DNA from: Infirmifilum sp. NZ
Lineage (GTDB): Archaea > Thermoproteota > Thermoprotei > Thermofilales > Thermofilaceae
Length of the DNA stretch: 64,000 bases
Reading direction: 5' to 3'
NCBI RefSeq assembly: GCF_022693705.1
Contig: NZ_CP094288.1
Coordinates: 1,132,443-1,196,442, forward strand
Positions within the stretch are counted from its first letter, which is position 1. Each line of letters opens with the position of its first letter. Shown piece after piece: positions 21,187-31,389 of this stretch. The translations under genes and the position numbers were made by a program. Below the pieces are notes generated by a model. That model was not told where the DNA came from, searched no databases, and saw only the letters and a list, made by a program, of their open reading frames with translations.

Positions 21187-21621
21187 ATGAGGAGAGGGAC
21201 CATCGAGCAGGAAGTGGAAGAGAAAGTTCGCCACGTACTAAACGGCGTCTCTGAAACTCTTGAAAAATTCGTGGAAGAGGGAAAATTGTCTTTGGTTGAA
21301 GTCAAGATGATAATAAGCTCTCTAGAACCTAGCTTCCGAATTCTCTCAAAAAAATGGGCTCTAACTTTGCTCTATGCTCTTCTATTGGCAGGGCCCTCAT
21401 CCTTCAATCAACTACGTACGGCTACAGGGATTAGCAAAAGAAGCCTTGCTTTGCGCCTCAAGGAGTTGGAAGTTCACGGTTTGATCGCACGGGAGGTCAA
21501 ACCTGGACCTCCAACAACAATTCTCTACAGGTTAACTGAAGCAGGTCGTGACACCGCGCTTCTCATGGTGCCCCTCATCTACTACCTTTCCAGGCAGACA
21601 CATCTTAACCTTCAATCTTAA
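21187..21621 (+). CDS. HxlR-type winged-helix transcriptional regulator
   Basis: A 144-residue regulator. Residues 45-125 form an HxlR/MarR-like winged helix: PSFRILSKKWALTLLYALL, SFNQLRTATGISKRSLALRLKEL (recognition helix) and HGLIAREVKPGPPTTILYRLTEAGR (wing). The first 45 residues add a helix that may serve dimerisation. No Cys is present, so redox sensing is unlikely. Divergent from geranylgeranyl reductase with two dyads between them, it probably controls that gene and itself. Confidence 0.88.
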   Translation: MRRGTIEQEVEEKVRHVLNGVSETLEKFVEEGKLSLVEVKMIISSLEPSFRILSKKWALTLLYALLLAGPSSFNQLRTATGISKRSLALRLKELEVHGLIAREVKPGPPTTILYRLTEAGRDTALLMVPLIYYLSRQTHLNLQS

Positions 21622-21799: not shown

Positions 21800-22846
21800 C
21801 TAAGCTAGAGCCGCTTGTCTTAACTTCAAGAAAACCTTGCGCGGCCGGGGGTCGCCTTGCCGGTAGAACAGGGCTGCCCCTCGGGTAGAGAAAAGAACAT
21901 GGTCGCGTTCGTCTGCTGTGAGGGAAAACAGCGACTCGACATCCCGTACGTAGCTTTCGGGGCCAGCGAGGATGATCACGAATCCGGCAAGTTGGAAAAC
22001 CCGGGGGTCGAACTCCCTGGGGAGTTGACTGATTGCTATGACGCCATAACCCCACTTTCTCACTTCTTTAAACAGCGAAAGTAGGTAGGGGGAGTGGACG
22101 TGCGCCTCTTCTAAGACTACAACCATCTCGAGCCTCTGCCTTGCGCCCCTCGCCCTCATGTAGCCATGTAGCAACAGTAGCAGGACTTGCGTCGCAAACG
22201 CCACAAGCTCCCGGGACGCCATCAAAGGTAGAGTGAAGTAGACGTCCTGCTCTGCCAGCTCGGTTATTCTGTAATCATTTCCGTGGAGCCGCGATATATC
22301 ATCAAACAACCTTTCAAGGTCAGGGTCTCCGTTAGCCAGTTTCTTAAAGGGCTCGAGGCTCTGTTCTCTTAAGCACTCGGCAATAATCTCGCGGATAACG
22401 TTTCTAGCCCCCCTCAAACCGTATATCAGCTCGACATATCTACCCAACTCCCCTGCGTATTCTAGCAGATCCCAGCCGGTAGCCGTAAGAAGATCTATCC
22501 TGTCACTCGTAATTATCAGGCGTCTGGTGAACAATCTCGCGTACGCCTCTTCGCCATGTGGATCTATAACCCAGGTCTTCACTCCACTTTCCCGTGCTTC
22601 AAGTATTAAGTGCCTTGCTAGCGTAGACTTGCCGCTGCCGCTAGTTCCCAAGATTACTCCATGCATGTTAGGCAGTTTTTCAGGGTTGAGAAAGATGTCC
22701 CTGCCTCTCTCGTCGATGCCTAGGTGAAAACCAGTGCTCTCTTCTCTCGGGGCTAGGACCGATAGCGGGGATATAACGGGAATTATGTCTCCTGCGAGGA
22801 GGAGCACTTTTTTCTCCATGAGTGAGCGTATGATCCTGTCCATCAT
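21800..22846 (-). CDS. HerA/VirB4-like ATPase (CedB/TedB-like)
   Basis: A 348-residue FtsK-HerA superfamily motor. The Walker A is ILGTSGSGKST (residues 66-75), Walker B is MVVVLEEAH (241-249), and the sensor segment is YGVIAISQLPREF (267-279). An N-terminal beta segment with DERGRDIFLNPEKLPNMHGV is typical for HerA, VirB4 and CedB proteins. It is shorter than VirB4 and lacks any membrane helix. Family members thread DNA or drive pilus assembly. It ends a five-gene leftward run (9-bp gap after the Cys-rich membrane protein) with VirB2-like and VirB6-like proteins, so a DNA-transfer motor is the best guess. Confidence 0.85.
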   Translation of the reverse strand: MMDRIIRSLMEKKVLLLAGDIIPVISPLSVLAPREESTGFHLGIDERGRDIFLNPEKLPNMHGVILGTSGSGKSTLARHLILEARESGVKTWVIDPHGEEAYARLFTRRLIITSDRIDLLTATGWDLLEYAGELGRYVELIYGLRGARNVIREIIAECLREQSLEPFKKLANGDPDLERLFDDISRLHGNDYRITELAEQDVYFTLPLMASRELVAFATQVLLLLLHGYMRARGARQRLEMVVVLEEAHVHSPYLLSLFKEVRKWGYGVIAISQLPREFDPRVFQLAGFVIILAGPESYVRDVESLFSLTADERDHVLFSTRGAALFYRQGDPRPRKVFLKLRQAALA

Positions 22847-22855
22847 CGCTATACG

Positions 22856-23926
22856 CTATTCCAGTACTTTTAACGTGAATACGTCATGGGAAAAGTGGAG
22901 ACCCATCCGGTCATATACTTCGCGCACGTGAGGAGTTGCTAACAGGATGGCCGATGCCAGGTAAACGGGCTCCCGTCTTTCCCACCTTCTCCTGCTCGCA
23001 AGGAAGTACTTCTGGCTCTGGTGGATTGTGCTCAGCTTATCCAGGGCCGTTCCAAACTCGTAGCTCCGGTATGCCTTTGCGTCTATCTTGCTTGAATGCT
23101 CCCACGAAGCCGGCTCAAGCCTGAAGGCAAGGTACTCTATCGATTGTGCAAGTCTGTAGTTGATCCGCGCCCTGGAGAACACCTCGCGGAGGCTTGGGTA
23201 AGTGTATGTTACTGTGGACTCTCGTAAGCTGTAAACTTGGGTCTCGCGGCTCAGGCTTACGGAGTAAATATCACCTTTGATTAGGGGTATAATCATTACC
23301 TGAAGCACTAGGAGGACGAGGAATGGAGGGAAATAAGGCGTGAGGATTGCGGTCAGAATAAGCACTCCCAGAAGCCTTATAGGACTACTTCTAACCTGTT
23401 TCAACCAGGCTGGCCTGAGGATTTCCCTAACCTCGTCTGCCCTCAGCCTCCTGAGGGTACATCCGGTAAGCTCTGTTCCCAGCCCAATGGTCTCTTTAGC
23501 CTCTAGTAGATTGTTTGCGAGATCGCAAAGCCTAGTCACGCATCTCTTCGCCAGCAGGAACACTCTCCCCCTTTGCACTACGAAGAAGTACTGTCCACCT
23601 GAGGTGAATGCTGCGTTGAAAAGCGTCATAGAGCGTGCCCAGAACTCTCTTTCGTCGAGGTCGTAGCAACCATGACGGCAGTCCAGCACCTCGAAGCCTA
23701 TGTATCCGCAATACAGGTTACTCATCCTACCGTAGCACGCGTTCTCGAGGCACTCGAGGCTCTGTAACGGGCATCCTCTCAGCGTAAAGCTCACGAATAG
23801 CTTGTAGATCTCTTTAGCTGACACGGTGAACGAGAGCGAGATTAAAAGGTAGGCTAGTGGAAGCGAGTAGGTTGTCAGCGAAAGACCTGAGAGGAACAGA
23901 AGAAGGGAGACTATACTTCTGTTCAA
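22856..23926 (-). CDS. Cys-rich membrane protein of the transfer cluster
   Basis: A 356-residue protein not recognised from sequence. Hydrophobic helices lie at about residues 5-38 (SIVSLLLFLSGLSLTTYSL) and 190-225 (LLGVLILTAILTPYFPPFLVLLVLQ, in part). Between them eleven cysteines, eight of them clustered at residues 52-87 (CPLQSLECLENACYGRMSNL, YCGY, LDCRHGC), suggest a disulfide-bonded domain, presumably outside the cell. The C-terminal 130 residues are helical and basic. It is squeezed between the large VirB6-like protein (21-bp gap) and the HerA ATPase (9-bp gap). A structural part of the transfer channel is inferred from position only. Confidence 0.75.
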   Translation of the reverse strand: MNRSIVSLLLFLSGLSLTTYSLPLAYLLISLSFTVSAKEIYKLFVSFTLRGCPLQSLECLENACYGRMSNLYCGYIGFEVLDCRHGCYDLDEREFWARSMTLFNAAFTSGGQYFFVVQRGRVFLLAKRCVTRLCDLANNLLEAKETIGLGTELTGCTLRRLRADEVREILRPAWLKQVRSSPIRLLGVLILTAILTPYFPPFLVLLVLQVMIIPLIKGDIYSVSLSRETQVYSLRESTVTYTYPSLREVFSRARINYRLAQSIEYLAFRLEPASWEHSSKIDAKAYRSYEFGTALDKLSTIHQSQKYFLASRRRWERREPVYLASAILLATPHVREVYDRMGLHFSHDVFTLKVLE

Positions 23927-23947
23927 TGCCCCGCCCCTCCTCGAGTA

Positions 23948-26365
23948 CTATTGGCTTTCTCCCAGCCTTCGAGAGTCCTTTTCACTAGCTCGCCTGAAAT
24001 CCAGGTACAGTTCGCGAGCCCATTTTACATTTTCTCCGCTACCTAGCCGTTTAAGCGCCTGGAGTCGATAGTTCAGCAGAAGCGCTTTTCTCGAGAAGAT
24101 GGGCTCTTCGTAGATCTTGTACCTCTTGAGGAGCGAGAGGTACAACTCATGATCAAATGCTGTCGCGTAGATAACCCCAGTGTCGACCCCACTAAGGGTT
24201 TCTGCATTTTCTATGAGCTTGATTAGTTTTGAAACCTCCTCTTGGTTTCTCGGGGAGGATCTCAGGTCGTTTAAAGCCAGTTGCTTGTAGGTCGTTAGGA
24301 TCCGCGTGTAGAGATCCCTATCTAGCGTCATTATATAATTGTCAGCAGCTTCGAAGTTCAGTTGCCTATAGGAGAATCTCCTGTAGCCGCGAAACGCGTG
24401 GTACATTATATGTAACTTCAGGGGTAGCTGGGGGAGTTTTTCCTTCACTGCTAGCCTTACAGGCCCCTCAAGAGCTCTCAGGCTTTTTTGGGAACGAAGG
24501 TGCATGTTCAGGAGTTTTCTGACCCTGCTGCTCTTTCTACGCGCCCCCCGTTCGCTTACCGTCACCTCGAATAACTCCCTTTCGGTTCTCTTAGAGAATG
24601 TGGAAGCGCGTTTTTTCTTGAATAAATTCTCCACCTCGTTTACTCGGGTTGGTTCGTCCAGATGATTTTCAATCCAACGCTCCTCATCCTCCCTCCTCTC
24701 TCTGTCTAGGACTTTCTTGGCCCAGCTGAGTAACGGTGGCTTTATGAGGCTGCGGGGATGTGGTAGGAGAGCTTTAGCCCAATCGCTCAAGTAAAATGCG
24801 CTTACTCCAGCGAAGCTTAAAAGTGCCGAGGCAGTGATCAATAAAGTCATCACAATCCCAAATAGCTGTGCGATGGGGTTTAGAACTTCGATGACATTCT
24901 CGGTTATCCACGCCGTAAAGCGGGTGACAGGATCCCATGAGCTAATATAAGTCGGGGCTGTTGTCGCGTTCCACTGGGCGATACCCCATATTGTCAAGTT
25001 CAGATTAACCGTCGTGTTGCCCTCTATGGAGTCGCAGTGAGCAATGCTAATGTGGAGCGCGTACTCGCTGAAACCCGGGATGGGCGTCTCGGTCAGATTG
25101 AGTGGTACTTCCCCGTTTACGGAGATTCCTCTGGCAACACGTTGTAGCCACTTCCTGTAAGCTTCACTGGCTTGTTGGAGCCAGCCGGGATCTATGAGCT
25201 TGCCTGGAGGCTTCTCGTCGCTCACCGTGATGTTAGGCTTGCACCCTCCAAGATTCGGGCTGTACTGCACGCGGTACGGCCCCCCTCGTACGAGAACCGT
25301 TACACCGCGCTTTAGTTCGTGAAGTGAAAATGAGTAGGTGACATACTCCTCTCCCTTATTCGACCGCACAATAGAGTCTCCCACATAGGCCAACACGTGG
25401 CCTGAGTGTCCGTTACCCTCTTCGATAGGCTCTACCGGTAACCATACCTGGACATCAGTGGTATAGCCTTCTTTAACTTGAAAGACGGCTGGCCAGACGT
25501 AGCAGTTGCAGCTCGAGTACTCGCGCGGGGAGTAGCAGCACGCATGGAGCGTAAAGTTGGTCCAGTAGTGAACCAACCAGAGGGCAGTGTAGTTTCCAAT
25601 CGGGAGCAACACCGCCGAGCCCTCGCGGATCCGGGTCACGTACACGTGGCCCCAATCATCTCGGAGAGCTACCAACACATCTGGCTTGAAAAAAGGAGTA
25701 GCGGAAACGTCCTCTACGTGAAACTTCACAACCCCAATGTTGCTCTCAACGGGGATCCCAACACTTAGAGGCTGAAGGCTCAAAGTGTACGTTTGAACGG
25801 CGGTGGGTATCAAAACGGCGAGGATGAATGCGACAAACCACACGGGTAAAGTGAGCCTTCGCACCCTCGGTACAAGCAATGTAGGTGTCAGCGAAACAAG
25901 CAGGCCTTGAAAGCTCGGGGAGAAGTTTAAAACGGTTAGCAAGCCTCGAAGCAATGCGAAGGCGAGTCCAGTAGAGGTGGCTAGCAGTTCCAGGGGTCCC
26001 AGAGCAGCGTGCATAGATGTTTGATAACCCGCGACGACCGTCGGAGCCGTCGAGCTCCCTGCCTCCGCGAAAACAATGCCTAGTACAACATCCAAAACAG
26101 CCACTGCTTTCGAAAGATCCAGAAGCCGGTCAAGGAATGCGCTTAGCGAGGCTATACTCCTATCGATAGTGCTCTTAGCAGAATCGAAAAGCCCTGGCCC
26201 GGCCATAGAGAGGAGTGGCTCTAATGCCACCACTATAGACACCGCCAGTAGCACTTCAGCCAGTTCTCTGGAGAGCCAACTCACCGCCTCGCTCCTCCGC
26301 CCCGTGAACCATTTACCCAGGAAAACGAGCAGCACTACCAAAGGGCCGACCGACCACGCGATCAT
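23948..26365 (-). CDS. Large VirB6/CedA/TedA-like membrane protein
   Basis: An 805-residue protein. About six hydrophobic helices in residues 1-200 (GPLVVLLVFLGKWF, EVLLAVSIVVALEPLL, AVLDVVLGIVFAEA, LLATSTGLAFALLRGLLTV, LPVWFVAFILAVLIPTA) resemble the polytopic core of VirB6/CedA. Residues 200-490 form a polar domain with many N-x-S/T sequons and a Cys-rich patch (ACCYSPREYSSCNC), probably outside. Another helix pair (about 500-535) is followed by a 265-residue basic, helical tail, probably inside. The opening KWFTGRRSEAV is shared with the next gene upstream, so the two cores are probably paralogues. Its ATG overlaps that gene's stop by 4 bp. Confidence 0.7.
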   Translation of the reverse strand: MIAWSVGPLVVLLVFLGKWFTGRRSEAVSWLSRELAEVLLAVSIVVALEPLLSMAGPGLFDSAKSTIDRSIASLSAFLDRLLDLSKAVAVLDVVLGIVFAEAGSSTAPTVVAGYQTSMHAALGPLELLATSTGLAFALLRGLLTVLNFSPSFQGLLVSLTPTLLVPRVRRLTLPVWFVAFILAVLIPTAVQTYTLSLQPLSVGIPVESNIGVVKFHVEDVSATPFFKPDVLVALRDDWGHVYVTRIREGSAVLLPIGNYTALWLVHYWTNFTLHACCYSPREYSSCNCYVWPAVFQVKEGYTTDVQVWLPVEPIEEGNGHSGHVLAYVGDSIVRSNKGEEYVTYSFSLHELKRGVTVLVRGGPYRVQYSPNLGGCKPNITVSDEKPPGKLIDPGWLQQASEAYRKWLQRVARGISVNGEVPLNLTETPIPGFSEYALHISIAHCDSIEGNTTVNLNLTIWGIAQWNATTAPTYISSWDPVTRFTAWITENVIEVLNPIAQLFGIVMTLLITASALLSFAGVSAFYLSDWAKALLPHPRSLIKPPLLSWAKKVLDRERREDEERWIENHLDEPTRVNEVENLFKKKRASTFSKRTERELFEVTVSERGARRKSSRVRKLLNMHLRSQKSLRALEGPVRLAVKEKLPQLPLKLHIMYHAFRGYRRFSYRQLNFEAADNYIMTLDRDLYTRILTTYKQLALNDLRSSPRNQEEVSKLIKLIENAETLSGVDTGVIYATAFDHELYLSLLKRYKIYEEPIFSRKALLLNYRLQALKRLGSGENVKWARELYLDFRRASEKDSRRLGESQ

Positions 26366-27141
26366 ACTCTCACAAAGTTGACGTAGATCCCCTCGAAGAT
26401 TCCGGCGAAACCCACTCCAGCCGCCGTTGCTAGCGATAGAGCTACCGCGCTTAGGGTCATTGCCTCACCTAAAGCTACGGCGGTCTCACCTGCAATGCTC
26501 GCTACGTTGACCCAGTCTGCCGGAGAAAAAGGCGAGGGTCTATGGACCCTGCCTATAGCTTTCGCCGTCACAGAGTTGCTGTACAACAAGCCTAAACTCG
26601 TTGCGAGATAGATTGCCAGAAAACTACTGCCCCACCTTCGAAACTTAGGGACTGGTAGCAGAGCAGAACCAACCAGGGCGAGATATTGTGAGGCTGCAGC
26701 TACAACCCTCGAGGCGAAGCTTAAGTGCAGGAAAAATACCGCAGCTATAGATAGCTCGGTTACAGACCAGCCCGTTGCTGCACCAAGTACGCTAGCGAAT
26801 GGCGATGTAAGAGGCGCGGACGCCAGAACCGCCCGCTCGCTCTGGACGTAAAGGATCGTTTCGACGGCTAGTCTGCTGGCATTAGCAAATGTCAAACTGC
26901 TCTCGTTGAGTCTCTCACTGACGAAGCCCGCGGAGTTGAGGCTTATAGGTATTCCGATCGAGCCAGCTATGCTGTCAGCGGCTGAGAAGATCACCTGAAG
27001 GATAACGGTGTAGAGCAATACATTCACGGCTGCCTCGAAATCGTAGACAGCTTCACCGCGTCTACCTAATGTCCACTTGAGCGTTCCGAGTGCGAGGTAC
27101 AGTAGTGCCCCACTCGCGGCGACGAGATCAACAACCAGCAT
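26362..27141 (-). CDS. Small VirB6/CedA/TedA-like membrane protein
   Basis: A 259-residue protein, nearly all hydrophobic, with about six helices (AASGALLYLALGTLKW, VLLYTVILQVIFSAA, LSIAAVFFLHLSFASRVV, YLALVGSALLPV, FLAIYLATSLGLLYSN, AVALSLATAAGVGFAG). Residues 20-31 (LKWTLGRRGEAV) match the corresponding part of the 805-residue protein, and the order of helices is similar, which points to duplication. Candidate inner-channel subunit of a conjugation-type apparatus. It begins right after the stop of the pilin-like gene and overlaps the next gene by 4 bp. Confidence 0.7.
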   Translation of the reverse strand: MLVVDLVAASGALLYLALGTLKWTLGRRGEAVYDFEAAVNVLLYTVILQVIFSAADSIAGSIGIPISLNSAGFVSERLNESSLTFANASRLAVETILYVQSERAVLASAPLTSPFASVLGAATGWSVTELSIAAVFFLHLSFASRVVAAASQYLALVGSALLPVPKFRRWGSSFLAIYLATSLGLLYSNSVTAKAIGRVHRPSPFSPADWVNVASIAGETAVALGEAMTLSAVALSLATAAGVGFAGIFEGIYVNFVRV

Positions 27142-27636
27142 CTACACTCCCTTCGATAGCGTGCCTACAATTATGGTCCAGCCACGCCTCAGCAGACTAT
27201 CCATGATCTGAGCAATGCTGGAGATCTCCGGGATGCCCAGCGAGTTAAGCACGTAGACGACGAAGAAAGTTATCGGTATGATCGCGAGTGTTTCAGCGGC
27301 GCGTATAAATTTAGACACGGCGAGGCTTCTCCCAAAGCTCCCTCCGGTTACCCACGAAAGGGCGGCGTCCAAAATAAGTATAATAAAGCCGAGAACGCCG
27401 ATACCGAAGGTTATCGCGGACAGGAGGGCTAGGATATCAACGAATGGCTGAAAGATCTTCAATACGATCTCCTCAGGCTGCAGAAGCGAAGGTGCGTTTA
27501 GCGCAAGGGGGACAATGGCGGCGATCTTCTCGTCGACGTTGCGCCACTCCACCACTTCTTTCCTTCTTGCTCTTCTAAGCGATGCTTCGAACCTAACCTG
27601 GAGAATTTTCAGCTTAATTTTATCCTTAAAGTTCAT
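27142..27636 (-). CDS. Candidate conjugative pilin (VirB2/TedC/CedA1-like)
   Basis: A 164-residue protein with a basic N-terminal 35 residues (KLKILQVRFEASLRRARRKE) and two hydrophobic helices, about 64-91 (FVDILALLSAITFGIGVLG and on) and 113-134 (AAETLAIIPITFFVVYVLNS). A glycine-containing loop (VTGGSFGRSLAVSKF) separates them. The two-helix hairpin after a long leader is the layout of VirB2-type pilins, with which archaeal CedA1 and TedC are homologous. It is the first gene of the leftward operon; an AATATAAACTT box (27654-27664) about 25 bp upstream suggests a leaderless mRNA. It could instead be a simple membrane anchor. Confidence 0.6.
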   Translation of the reverse strand: MNFKDKIKLKILQVRFEASLRRARRKEVVEWRNVDEKIAAIVPLALNAPSLLQPEEIVLKIFQPFVDILALLSAITFGIGVLGFIILILDAALSWVTGGSFGRSLAVSKFIRAAETLAIIPITFFVVYVLNSLGIPEISSIAQIMDSLLRRGWTIIVGTLSKGV

Positions 27637-27651
27637 CGTTGAAACTTAGCC

Positions 27652-27707
27652 GCAAGTTTATATTGAAAAGTGAGAGAAGGAACCGCGTTTATTCGTCTTA
27701 TTAATGC
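27652..27707. promoter_or_regulatory. Divergent promoters of the transfer cluster
   Basis: Leftward, the box AATATAAACTT on the minus strand (27654-27664) sits about 25 bp before the pilin-like start at 27636. Rightward, TCTTATTAATG (27696-27706) sits about 30 bp before the ATG of the ParA-like gene at 27733. Both spacings suit leaderless archaeal transcripts. The two operons therefore share one 96-bp control region and are likely expressed together. Confidence 0.55.
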
Positions 27708-27732
27708 GTGCATGTAAACAAGCAGGGATACT

Positions 27733-28446
27733 ATGGTTATCGTGGCGTTTGCCTCCGGTAACAAAGGGGGGACTGGGAAAACAGTAACCGCCAGCCTCTT
27801 AAGCTATCACCTTGCGAAGAGCGGTAGACAAGTACTCCTCATTGATTTAGGCGAATACGGCAGTAGCACCCAGCTAACCCTGGAGAGGGACCCCGGCCCA
27901 CCGTACCTCAACGACTATTTCCTGGGAAACGCCTCCTGGGGCGATGTTATCGTGACAAGTCCATTTAGCGACAACCTGCATGTCGCCCCAAGCCGTGGCG
28001 AGATAGGTCCCGTGGACGCCGAAACGCTTGAGTACTTGCTAGACCGCGTGAGCAGCCACGTTTCGCACGTGTTTATAGATCTGCCCGCTTACCCCGGTTC
28101 GCTATATGACCCCATAGTTGGCTTAGCCGAAATAATTGTCCCGGTATTTAATCCTGATTCTCTGTCCTTCCAGGCGGTTAAAGAGTGGTTAAAGCGGAGA
28201 GCTTTTCGCAGCAGAAAGCTTGTGTTACCGCTTCTCAATAAGTACTTTACGATGATGGGTGAGTGGAAAGAGAAAGCAGAGGATGAATTCGGATCGGTGT
28301 TCACGCTTCCGTTCGACTCTGCTCTCCTGTTTTCGCTTACAAGCACTATTGAAGACGCTTACTCCCTATCAAATCGCCGTGTTAAAGATGAGCTGAGGCT
28401 CCTAGCTTACCGCATTGAGAAGCCGTTGCTGAAGGTGACAGGCTGA
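27733..28446 (+). CDS. ParA/MinD-type ATPase
   Basis: A 237-residue deviant-Walker ATPase. The P-loop is NKGGTGKTVTASLLSYHLA (KGGTGKT at residues 11-17, with the signature lysine). DLGEYGSSTQLTLE follows, Walker B is HVFIDLPAYPG, and VFNPDSLSFQAVKEWLKRR lies further on. Members position plasmids, chromosomes or membrane machines such as pili. It opens the rightward operon; its TGA overlaps the ATG of the coiled-coil gene. In this setting it may place or recruit the transfer apparatus, which is inference. Confidence 0.9.
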   Translation: MVIVAFASGNKGGTGKTVTASLLSYHLAKSGRQVLLIDLGEYGSSTQLTLERDPGPPYLNDYFLGNASWGDVIVTSPFSDNLHVAPSRGEIGPVDAETLEYLLDRVSSHVSHVFIDLPAYPGSLYDPIVGLAEIIVPVFNPDSLSFQAVKEWLKRRAFRSRKLVLPLLNKYFTMMGEWKEKAEDEFGSVFTLPFDSALLFSLTSTIEDAYSLSNRRVKDELRLLAYRIEKPLLKVTG

Positions 28447-28790
28447 TGTCGTTAAGGAGACCTTTCGCGAATGGGTCGAGGGTTGCTGAACGCGCTGAGA
28501 AACAGTCTTTACCAATTCCGTCACCGCCTATGAGGATGGAGACAACCTTAGGAGTCGTGGAGGATAAGGATATGCTTGAGCGTGGGTTAAGGACTCTTGA
28601 GGAGCTTCTAAGGAGTCTGGGATTTGAGGGAGCCTTAGCTGAGAAGGTTCGCCAAAGGATGGTGGAGATTGATAGGGATATTAGCAGAATAGAGGCTGAA
28701 ATCGCGAAACTTGAGGGTGAGAGAAATCGCCTGTTAAAGGAGAAGGAGAGAATAGCTTCGGTTATCAGAGCATTTTCTGGTGTTGCTTGA
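28446..28790 (+). CDS. Small coiled-coil protein
   Basis: A 114-residue protein with a disordered, Pro- and Arg-rich N-terminus (about 30 residues, SLPIPSPPMR) followed by helices. The C-terminal 50 residues are a strong coiled coil (VEIDRDISRIEAEIAKLEGE). Start and stop codons overlap both neighbours (ATGT with the ParA-like stop and TGATG with the VirB11-like start), so it is translationally coupled between the two ATPases and may tether them. It is not recognised. Confidence 0.8.
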   Translation: MSLRRPFANGSRVAERAEKQSLPIPSPPMRMETTLGVVEDKDMLERGLRTLEELLRSLGFEGALAEKVRQRMVEIDRDISRIEAEIAKLEGERNRLLKEKERIASVIRAFSGVA

Positions 28791-29941
28791 TGAACCTTCT
28801 GAGAACCTTTCGAACATCCAAGACAGGAAAGCAGAGTAGCCAGGAAATTGTGAGCGTTGAGGATCTTATACCTAGTGGTTCTAAATTACTGGTTAAAAAC
28901 CCGAGCGGTTTCGTTGTCAGTTACGATGGGCGCGTAGATGTAATTCCCTTGAGGGAGCACGACATATGGGGCAGGCTATCACCAATCTTTCTATCCCAGG
29001 AGGCCGAAGAGGTGTGGCTTTTCGAGGGAAAAACAATCGTCACAATAAAGAACGTTGGGAGGGTGAGCATTGTTGGAGCACCCACAAGGGAGGAGCTAGA
29101 AAACATCATTGTAAAGATAATTGCCGCAACGGGAGTAAAAGTTGACATGAGGCGCCCTAGAGGCGTCGTGGACGTCGACGACTGGAGAGTCTCCCTTCAG
29201 CTTTCCTCGGGCGGTCAGTTGCAACTGGTTGCAACTCGCTTCGCGAGAGTGCCGGCGATCACAGAAATCCTGCCTCCGCTTGCAGCTGCCAGGCTTCTTC
29301 TTTTGCTGATGAGACCATCGGTCGTACTTATTCTCGGACCACCTGGCTCAGGAAAGTCCACGCTGCTCAACTCGCTAGTGAGGGAGGTGGCACTTAGGTA
29401 CCCGTTTCTTCATATCGCAGTTGTCGAGAAGTACAGGGAGCTAGTGTTTAGGGACGGATGGTTCACGTGGGTAATTAACGATAACTTGGCAGAAGGAGTA
29501 AGGTTTGCAATGAGGTACTACCGACCCGACGTTCTAGTGGTTGGAGAAATAATGGCAGAGGACGTGTGGAGCATAGTCGAGCCAGGACGCGCAGGCCTTC
29601 CGACAATAACAACTTTTCACAGCCCGTCTATAAGGAAAGCTGTAAAAGTGCTTTCAGATGCTCTCAGAGCTCACCTTGGGTACGGCGACGAGAACAGCGC
29701 GCTCCAATACATCGACGTTTTTGTTCAAACGCGCAAGAAAGTCACTCCCAGCGGTGTGGAGAGGCAGGTTGAAGGCATCTACGTGAGCGACGGGCAACGA
29801 CTCTTCCCAGTATACGCCGACGGAGACTTTGCCGCAGAAGAAGATTTCCTGAAGGCAGTGCCAGATCAACTGTACGTGGGTGCCGCGAACCAAGCCTTAG
29901 CTGAGGTCTATAGTAGTTTTGGCTTGAGTCTCAAGCGGTAA
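28790..29941 (+). CDS. VirB11/GspE-like secretion ATPase
   Basis: A 383-residue hexameric-type ATPase of the type II/IV secretion superfamily. The N-terminal domain of about 165 residues is beta-rich. The P-loop is ILGPPGSGKST (residues 181-191), the Walker B-like acidic segment is PDVLVVGEIMAED (246-258), and the His box is TITTFHSPSIRKA. VirB11, archaellum FlaI and type IV pilus ATPases belong here; no archaellum or pilin gene with a class III signal is nearby, which favours a VirB11-like role. The ATG at 28790 shares its first base with the preceding stop. The next gene starts 5 bp after its stop. Confidence 0.88.
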   Translation: MNLLRTFRTSKTGKQSSQEIVSVEDLIPSGSKLLVKNPSGFVVSYDGRVDVIPLREHDIWGRLSPIFLSQEAEEVWLFEGKTIVTIKNVGRVSIVGAPTREELENIIVKIIAATGVKVDMRRPRGVVDVDDWRVSLQLSSGGQLQLVATRFARVPAITEILPPLAAARLLLLLMRPSVVLILGPPGSGKSTLLNSLVREVALRYPFLHIAVVEKYRELVFRDGWFTWVINDNLAEGVRFAMRYYRPDVLVVGEIMAEDVWSIVEPGRAGLPTITTFHSPSIRKAVKVLSDALRAHLGYGDENSALQYIDVFVQTRKKVTPSGVERQVEGIYVSDGQRLFPVYADGDFAAEEDFLKAVPDQLYVGAANQALAEVYSSFGLSLKR

Positions 29942-29946
29942 AAACT

Positions 29947-31389
29947 TTGAAAGCGGAGGAGCTCTTCGAAAAAGCGGGCCTACAGCCGAGGTCTGGGCAA
30001 CTTGAAGTCGCGCAACTGATAGCCGAGCTTGAAGGTGACGTGCTACTGGTGGCTCCGACGGGCTGGGGCAAGACTCTGGCTGTCCTCGCGGGGCTGAAGG
30101 CCTCGCATCGGCTGCCGGTGCTGTGGCTGACGAGGGCGCTGGAGGTCGGGAGGAGGGTTGTTGCCGACGCCTCGAGGCTGGGCTTGAGGGCCTTCGTGGC
30201 GGCGGGGAGGGAAAAACTGTGCCCCTACGCCAGGAGCGTCGAGGACACGGCGGAGTTCTGCAGGGCCTTCAGGGCGCAGTGCCCCCACTTCCTCTCGCTG
30301 GTCAGGGAGGGGGTGGGGGACTTGTGGGCGGAGAGCTGGGAGGAACTACCTAAACTGCTACCGGGAGTATGTCACTACTACGCCCAGGACGCCGTGATCA
30401 GCAGGGCGGACGTCGTTGTACAGAACTACTACCGCAGGGTGAGCGGCTACTACAGCGCTGCTGTCGTGGACGAGGCCCACAACTTGCTGGCGCCGAGGGT
30501 TTTGAAGTACGATCTCGCCAAGCTGGAGCTAGCACTGGACGAGCTGAAAACTAGGGAGCCGAGCCTGGTGCCAGTTGTAGAGGAGGCTTTTTCAAAACAG
30601 GGTGCTGCTGAGGAGGCACTTGAGAGTGTACTCCAGCTTTACAGAGAGATGCTTGGTAAGGTGCATACTGCTTTAGTGCCGCTTGTAAGGCTGCTAAAGG
30701 CGGTAGTGAGGGGCGGGGTAGTCTACCGAGAAGCAGGAGCAATTGAGGTTTACATGCCTCCGTGGAAGCCCAACATTAACCCCCGCATATACCTTAGTGG
30801 TACGGTGCCGGAGCCCCTCGAAAAGCTCTTCGGGGCGCAGGTTGTCAGGGTGCCTCAGCAGCCCAGGAGGGCTCTGGTCGTCACGGACCTGACGAGCAAG
30901 TACGGCTCGGAGACCATTTGGGGCTACGTTAAGTTGCTCGCGGCGCTGAGGCGGCGCTACTCGAGGGTTCTGGCGTTCGCCACCGAGAGGGTTGCGAGGC
31001 AGGTGATCGCTGGGGTGGATTTCTACGAGGAGCGCCTCCCGGCGGAGTGGAGGGGTGTGGCGCTCTACACTGTCTACGGGCGCTTCAGCGAGGGGGTGGA
31101 CCTGTCAGCGGACGCCGTAGCCCTCCTGGGGGCACCCTTCCTACCGCCGGAGGTGGAGGCGAGGTACGAGCGCTACTACAACCGCTTGGGCATCAGCGGC
31201 GACGCTGCGAGGTGGGTGCCCATGGTGACCACAACCCTGCAGTGCGTCGGGAGGGCCACCCGGAAGCCCGAGGACAGCCCACTTATAGTCCTGGCGGACT
31301 ACAGGTTCAGGCGCTTCGACTTCAGCCCGACACTGGTGCTCGAGGAAGTGGACTTGAGAAGTTTAGAGAAAGTTCTAGTATCGCGTTAA
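29947..31389 (+). CDS. XPD/DinG-type Fe-S superfamily 2 helicase
   Basis: A 480-residue 5'-3' helicase of the XPD/Rad3 group, shorter than archaeal XPD (about 550-600). Motif I is VAPTGWGKT (residues 35-43). Four cysteines at about 92, 105, 112 and 142 match the [4Fe-4S] domain, motif II is VVDEAHN (174-180), and motifs V/VI include YGRFSEGVDLSADAV and QCVGRATRKPED. The start is TTG, 5 bp after the VirB11-like gene, so it probably shares that operon. Base composition is odd: hand counts give about 72% GC at 30061-30120 and 31081-31140, 52% at 30601-30660, against 42% in the upstream gene. Transfer or gene conversion is likely. Confidence 0.88.
   Translation: MKAEELFEKAGLQPRSGQLEVAQLIAELEGDVLLVAPTGWGKTLAVLAGLKASHRLPVLWLTRALEVGRRVVADASRLGLRAFVAAGREKLCPYARSVEDTAEFCRAFRAQCPHFLSLVREGVGDLWAESWEELPKLLPGVCHYYAQDAVISRADVVVQNYYRRVSGYYSAAVVDEAHNLLAPRVLKYDLAKLELALDELKTREPSLVPVVEEAFSKQGAAEEALESVLQLYREMLGKVHTALVPLVRLLKAVVRGGVVYREAGAIEVYMPPWKPNINPRIYLSGTVPEPLEKLFGAQVVRVPQQPRRALVVTDLTSKYGSETIWGYVKLLAALRRRYSRVLAFATERVARQVIAGVDFYEERLPAEWRGVALYTVYGRFSEGVDLSADAVALLGAPFLPPEVEARYERYYNRLGISGDAARWVPMVTTTLQCVGRATRKPEDSPLIVLADYRFRRFDFSPTLVLEEVDLRSLEKVLVSR

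Follow-up and report, generated by a model that had tools for sequence, protein, structure and literature searches.

Bacteria pass DNA between cells by means of VirB/D4-type type IV secretion systems (T4SS). Two archaeal systems, Ted and Ced, are published as DNA-exchange systems lacking relaxases (PMC9905601, PMC11868833). A gene for a ParA/MinD ATPase is commonly reported in Ted loci (PMC9905601), and two VirB6-like proteins, CedA and CedE, in Saccharolobus (PMC11868833). Here we describe nine genes (g1 to g9) in a stretch of 64,000 nt (the window; contig NZ_CP094288.1, positions 1,132,443 to 1,196,442) of the 1.83-Mb chromosome of the thermophilic archaeon Infirmifilum sp. NZ, order Thermofilales (genome G000; other G and L numbers denote comparison genomes and loci). 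As judged from sequence comparison, the locus is Ted-like by two of the three defining proteins and is not Ced. Its new features are a split VirB4, a second TedA-like domain and a linked motor of type IV pilus (T4P)-like kind. We think it probable that the locus is a domesticated Ted-like, T4SS-derived machine for DNA exchange, in which g8 powers a linked T4P-like system. No description of the locus was found in the openly accessible literature, subscription papers and preprints being outside that search.

Locus organisation and conservation

A sequence-only reading of the window had described a tight leftward run of five genes and a rightward run of four, diverging from a 96-bp control region. 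An ORF check of the window recovered all nine genes in this layout (Table 1), with spacings of 0, -4, 21 and 9 bp in the leftward run, and the domain calls of that reading for g1, g6, g8 and g9 also held. In the divergent gap, a TATA-like box (TATAAA) lies 26 bp upstream of the g5 start; the spacing is the same in a second strain (G061), and in G005 an ATAAAT lies at -28. TTG starts are plausible for g2, g8 and g9.

Three further species of the genus (G005, G004 and G003; 28-72% protein identity) have all nine genes in the same order, as does G061. G002 is an exception, retaining g1 to g6 and g9 at the locus with g7 and g8 missing, and the locus of G001 is only partial since its contig stops within g6. 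Counting this partial locus, g5 and g6 are head-to-head in 7/7 genus-level genomes. Eight genes had dN/dS values of 0.10-0.22 between G000 and G061, and g3 had 0.43, indicating purifying selection. Collinearity across the genus and purifying selection together exclude chance as the origin of the nine-gene locus. The two runs keep together within the genus, but beyond it the halves also occur apart (see below).

An integrated conjugative element, or the decayed remnant of one, that moves itself rather than cellular DNA might explain the conjugative origin of the parts, the presence of a ParA, which is typical of elements, and the occurrence of two loci in some relatives (G004, G009). This is most improbable, however, as the same geranylgeranyl-reductase-like gene forms a constant chromosomal flank in all six genus genomes and the ORFs are intact and under purifying selection. 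Moreover, no plasmid relatives of g4 or g8 were found, and the relaxase family PF03432 had no match anywhere in the G000 genome. Nor was a coupling protein recognised in the locus, as the sequence-only reading had also noted for both. With no relaxase and a flank that is constant across the genus, a mobile element is unsupported; the constant flank and the lack of plasmid relatives point instead to a domesticated machine.

Next to the locus, a gene for an HxlR-type winged-helix regulator (window positions 21187-21621) lies tail-to-tail with g1 in most genus genomes and is not beside g1 in G002. Its product is a possible regulator of the locus.

Table 1. Features of the locus and of the linked gene set. 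Coordinates are window positions unless a locus or contig is named.
Feature	Position	Strand	Evidence
g1, predicted C-terminal ATPase half of split VirB4/TedB (HerA/FtsK superfamily), 348 aa	21800..22846	-	DUF87/HerA 45 bits, hhalign, tree
g2, predicted N-terminal half of split VirB4/TedB, with membrane segments	22856..23926	-	hhalign, AlphaFold2, Foldseek
g3, large membrane protein	23948..26365	-	hhalign of N-terminus, Cys conservation
g4, TedA/VirB6-like channel protein	26362..27141	-	hhalign against TedA family
g5, probable TedC-like conjugative pilin	27142..27636	-	position as tedC, weak profile match
Divergent promoter region, 96 bp	27637..27732		TATAAA 26 bp upstream of g5 start
g6, ParA/MinD ATPase	27733..28446	+	AAA_31/ParA 44 bits
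g7, small coiled-coil protein between ParA and ATPase	28446..28790	+	order-wide profile matches at that position
g8, T2SSE-type secretion ATPase of a Thermofilales-specific family	28787..29941	+	T2SSE 37 bits
g9, compact XPD-family Fe-S helicase	29947..31389	+	Helicase_C_2 51 bits, over cut-off
T4P-like gene set without its own ATPase, beside TopoVI	L282:7069-14234 = G000:C1:1125068-1132233, left of the window		region reading, profile search

A VirB4/TedB protein in two parts

In Thermoproteales and in other Thermofilales, the relatives of g1 are unsplit and about 630-790 aa long. Profiles were compared with hhalign; they are shallow (roughly 2-18 rows), and the single-pair E-values differ from database E-values. 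The g1 profile matched the ATPase half of fused TedB (prob 100, TedB columns 366-688 of 694) and that of g2 matched the N-terminal half (prob 93, columns 35-313), such that g2 and g1 cover fused TedB in order. An AlphaFold2 model of g2 was of middling confidence (pTM 0.60, mean pLDDT 66.5, three sequences in the alignment). Searched against the PDB with Foldseek, its top 9 matches were all to R388 VirB4/TrwK, the best being 7o43_B (E 8e-4, prob 1.00). Profile and fold are independent lines in agreement, and both predict that g2, previously described as a Cys-rich membrane protein, is the N-terminal half of VirB4. Together, g1 and g2 supply the TedB/VirB4-like ATPase of Ted, though split, unlike published TedB. 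The split forms group as one clade (support 99/96) when the ATPase domain is used to build a tree, so that a single fission accounts for them. Both split and fused forms of TedB are present in G004 and in G009.

A g1-type ATPase half also occurs alone, with neither g2 nor T4SS-like genes nearby (L048:9383-10483 and L049:8765-9823, from G012 and G007). A 776-aa HerA-type protein at G000:C1:1826 kb was considered as the 'real' TedB and rejected, as its Pfam match is HerA_C and a TedA- or TedC-like gene was not found nearby.

Channel proteins and the candidate pilin

The polytopic TedA/CedA-like component of Ted is represented by g4, which matched the TedA family with an hhalign probability of 97.2, against 28-39 for CedA. 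Unrelated polytopic families used as controls (the partner of the g8 family, described below, and T2SSF) gave probabilities below 1 with TedA, CedA or g4. The N-terminal 260 residues of g3 in turn matched the g4 family (prob 98.0). These two matches indicate that the locus encodes two TedA/VirB6-like proteins. In g3, which has invariant cysteines, the g4/TedA-like domain of 4-5 transmembrane (TM) segments is followed by a Cys-rich, presumed outside domain, then by a TM segment and a cytoplasmic tail. Its counterpart in loci with fused TedB is a 1240-1290 aa protein encoded after TedA (global prob 98, local 85).

Two Ted loci that we picked for comparison (L058 and L085) contain ParA, a TedB-like gene, a 7-TM TedA and a pilin bearing the signal motif AVAQA, which has been published for TedC. 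The place, size and hydrophobic pattern of g5 match those of TedC. It carries a long charged N-terminal extension and a conserved GGSFGR loop between its hydrophobic helices, and its sister-genus relatives in G006, G009, G021 and G023 have signal-peptide-like N-termini. We regard g5 as a probable TedC-like pilin, the weakest assignment of the locus. An attempt to settle its identity with AlphaFold2 and Foldseek was uninformative, the alignment holding two sequences.

Membership of Ced was rejected on family cut-offs. Scores of g1 were 41 of 600 bits against CedD and 20 of 700 against CedB, far below cut-off, and g3 to g5 gave no match to the CedA, CedA1 or CedE families. CedB was not found among 81 genomes of the class. 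The description of a Ced/Ted-like locus with VirB4-, VirB6- and pilin-type parts is supported, with the locus nearer to Ted, through TedA (g4) and TedB (g1 and g2), and outside the Ced families. In the Ced locus of a Pyrodictiaceae metagenome-assembled genome (MAG; L122:7541-9249), the profile of CedA1 picks up CedA and CedE as well, in their N-terminal part, which suggests that pilin and channel have a helical hairpin in common. No such sharing was seen between g5 and g4.

The secretion ATPase and its proposed T4P-like partners

The first gene of the rightward run, g6, has a deviant Walker A (GNKGGTGKT) and belongs to a family found order-wide beside the T2SSE ATPase. It provides the co-located MinD/ParA that is common, not universal, in Ted. 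A positioning ATPase of its own had been put forward as a novelty of the locus, but it is not new, as ParA is already published as an associate of Ted (PMC9905601). In four ATPase loci of Thermofilales, from G008, G002, G015 and G004, ParA has a ParB_N-domain protein close by. These proteins are encoded at L062:12727-13671 (G004), L086:1243-2145, L104:7151-8056 and L101:5027-5965. In G049 (L053:13136-17215), ParA, a TadA-type ATPase, a 4-TM protein and a single-TM pilin-like gene are immediately upstream of TedB.

The T2SSE catalytic motifs are present in the g8 family: in an alignment of 22 rows, Walker A, the GE of Walker B and TTxH are each at least 90% conserved. With matches counted at E below 1e-20, a search of 26 Thermofilales genomes found the family in 20, and at this threshold Thermoproteales have none. 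Elsewhere its members follow ParA and usually a coiled-coil gene, and are accompanied by a class-III-pilin-like protein and a polytopic partner of 360-420 aa. Outside the window clade, 15/17 members share their locus with the partner gene, the exceptions being in G007 and the second copy in G017. The main text of PMC9905601 or PMC11868833 gives no such ATPase as a part of Ced or Ted.

The lineage of the window has the ATPase group within the T4SS-like locus, and its usual partners are left about 29 kb away. These lie beside TopoVI, where G000 encodes a pilin-like protein of 132 aa, a diverged partner of 402 aa (G000:C1:1131025-1132233; E 1.4e-23 to the family profile), secreted proteins of 473 and 743 aa and small single-TM proteins; ParA, coiled coil and ATPase are all missing there. 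The arrangement in G005 is the same (63% identity to G000 for the partner, 76% for the pilin). At the TopoVI-linked site of G002, ParB, ParA, coiled coil, ATPase, pilins and partner are all together. Loss of the partner in G000, G003 and G005, for which tblastn had found none, was dropped when a profile search of the TopoVI region in G000 and G005 detected both genes, the partner in diverged form. As G000 has no second full-length member of the g8 family, and the two other T2SSE genes detected there adjoin T2SSF genes of their own, g8 may well drive the TopoVI-linked T4P-like system.

The sequence-only reading had called g8 a VirB11-like ATPase. If g8 were a functional VirB11, it would act with the split VirB4 in pilus assembly and DNA transfer, independently of any T4P-like filament. 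In agreement with this, g8 lies in the T4SS-like locus of G000, G061, G003, G004 and G005 away from the usual partner genes, its clade is well separated in the tree (99/99 with G007), and TrbB, DotB and VirB11 are among its best NCBIfam matches. Those matches, however, are far below cut-off (28.4 bits against VirB11 TIGR02788, cut-off 249.95). Moreover, family members outside the window clade share a locus with the partner gene in the proportion given above, the TopoVI region of G000 and of G005 still has partner and pilin but no ATPase, and G002 has a T4SS-like locus without g8. A partner-less ATPase turned VirB11 was demoted to a rival reading because partner and pilin persist at TopoVI, and we now consider it rather unlikely. 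The VirB11-like label holds for the catalytic motifs and not for the family, and g8 is more likely the motor of the linked T4P-like system than a true VirB11.

The XPD-like helicase

Four cysteines of g9 align with the cluster cysteines of the XPD of G000 itself. It is the third Helicase_C_2 protein of this genome, and the two others are longer (G000:C1:427725 and 1052336). Its score against Rad3/XPD TIGR00604 was 36 of 247 bits, below cut-off, and g9 is best described from its sequence as a relative within the XPD family, not the orthologous XPD. While g9 itself is genus-specific, similar genes lie near TedB-like genes elsewhere, at the second locus of G004 and in G041, where the distance is 2.4 kb. 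This repeated association would support a role for g9 in transfer or repair. The XPD-like genes of G004 (L062:3605-5005 and L044:14822-16222) are near-identical and lie in two separate Ted-like loci, which suggests recent duplication or gene conversion. In G041, a Thermoproteales-type genome, an XPD-like helicase, a HerA-like ATPase and small coiled-coil genes (L065:3531-5821) adjoin a 496-aa TedB-like gene, and a similar trio is also found near TedB in L062.

The leftward run could instead encode a T4SS-like pilus or secretion machine for adhesion or protein export, not used for DNA, as the missing relaxase and coupling protein and the large presumed extracellular domain of g3 might suggest. 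We find this improbable, given the ParA and helicase next to it, the ParB in sister loci, and the publication of its Ted and Ced relatives as relaxase-less DNA-exchange systems (PMC9905601, PMC11868833).

A proposed machine for DNA exchange

In the favoured reading, a domesticated Ted-like machine linked to a T4P-like system, g5 would enter the membrane and, after processing, build a thin conjugative pilus on a channel of g4 and g3. Rings of g1, docked on membrane-anchored g2, would power pilin assembly and then the movement of single-stranded DNA (ssDNA). ParA and the coiled-coil g7 may position the DNA or the machine; a role of this kind has been proposed in Ted for its VirC1-like ParA. The g9 helicase could unwind DNA for transfer, or process incoming strands for recombination. 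Lastly, g8 would power the linked T4P-like system, for which the pilin and membrane partner genes lie immediately beyond the left edge of the window. We infer both DNA transfer and its direction; the lack of a relaxase, which the sequence-only reading took to fit import rather than export, does not decide between the two. The position of g8 would couple the T4P-like system to the DNA conduit, and one locus would thus unite the assembly motor of a contact filament with a DNA conduit, much as Ups and Ced work as a functional pair in Sulfolobales. Consistent with a link between the modules, a single contig carries TedC/TedA-like and VirB4-type genes together with those for ParA, the ATPase, the pilin-like protein and the partner in G008, G015, the second locus of G004 and G023.

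Several observations weigh against this reading. The deeper g5 family matched TedC weakly (hhalign 39 local, 55 global), and its AlphaFold2 model (two sequences in the alignment) had no PDB fold match in Foldseek. The distance of about 29 kb makes the pairing of g8 with its partners tentative. The partner was also tried as a T2SSF and rejected (prob at most 13 against archaeal T2SSF, no Pfam T2SSF match), and with no detectable homology there, the term 'T4P-like' is based on gene order, the ATPase and the pilin-like N-termini. The T4P-like module occurs without a g5-type pilin in G016, G022, G024 and G017-G019, and a g5-type pilin without a g8-family ATPase in G021, although many of the genomes with modules apart are incomplete MAGs. 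Finally, g7 and g8 are absent from the T4SS-like locus of G002.

If the favoured reading holds, T4SS-derived DNA exchange extends to another archaeal order, with a different architecture, and the locus offers a new place to test how archaea exchange DNA for repair. A naturally split VirB4 allows one to ask which half builds pili and which moves DNA, a question that is hard to address in fused proteins. The XPD-like helicase, ParA and the ParB of sister loci are candidate partners for making and delivering ssDNA without a relaxase. The link to a T4P-like motor suggests that paired evolution of contact pili and DNA conduits is possible, which the functional pairing of Ups with Ced also implies.

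Comparison with known systems

The locus shares with VirB/D4 and R388 T4SS the general set of parts and the predicted fold of g2, that of the R388 VirB4 N-terminal domain. It differs in that VirB4 is in two genes, g8 scores outside the VirB11 family, and no VirB7-10, VirD4 or relaxase was recognised. As for archaeal type IV pili (Ups, Aap and Tad-type), a T2SSE ATPase family is found elsewhere with class-III-pilin-like proteins; here, however, the partner is not detectably T2SSF, and the ATPase, typically of about 380-430 aa, is short and has ParA and a coiled coil alongside it.

Ted (Thermoproteales exchange of DNA; TedA, TedB and TedC; PMC9905601) is the closest relative. Genes for TedA/VirB6- and TedB/VirB4-type proteins and for a pilin, here a probable one, are close together in both, ParA/MinD is common, the loci are chromosomal and no relaxase has been described. 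In contrast to Ted, TedB is split into g2 and g1, g3 holds a second TedA-like domain, a T2SSE ATPase and an XPD-like helicase are present, the pilin is weakly alignable and the host order is Thermofilales.

Ced (CedA, CedA1, CedA2, CedB, CedD and CedE) with Ups pili (Sulfolobales, PMC11868833) is alike in having a T4SS-like machine, paired VirB6-like proteins (CedA/CedE), VirB4 N-terminal functions shared out between proteins (CedB and CedD) and a partner type IV pilus. It differs in the manner of the VirB4 division, which here parts the N-terminal half from the ATPase, with no duplication. Ups and Ced are separate loci, paired functionally and not physically, whereas here the T4P-like motor sits in the conduit locus. 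We tentatively propose, as a possibility short of an even chance, a composite Thermofilales machine made of a T4SS-derived conduit and a T4P-like system, with the pilus motor head-to-head with the conduit genes and VirB4 as two separable subunits, a membrane-anchored N-terminal half and a free ATPase half. If true, such a machine would be the physically linked counterpart of Ups plus Ced.

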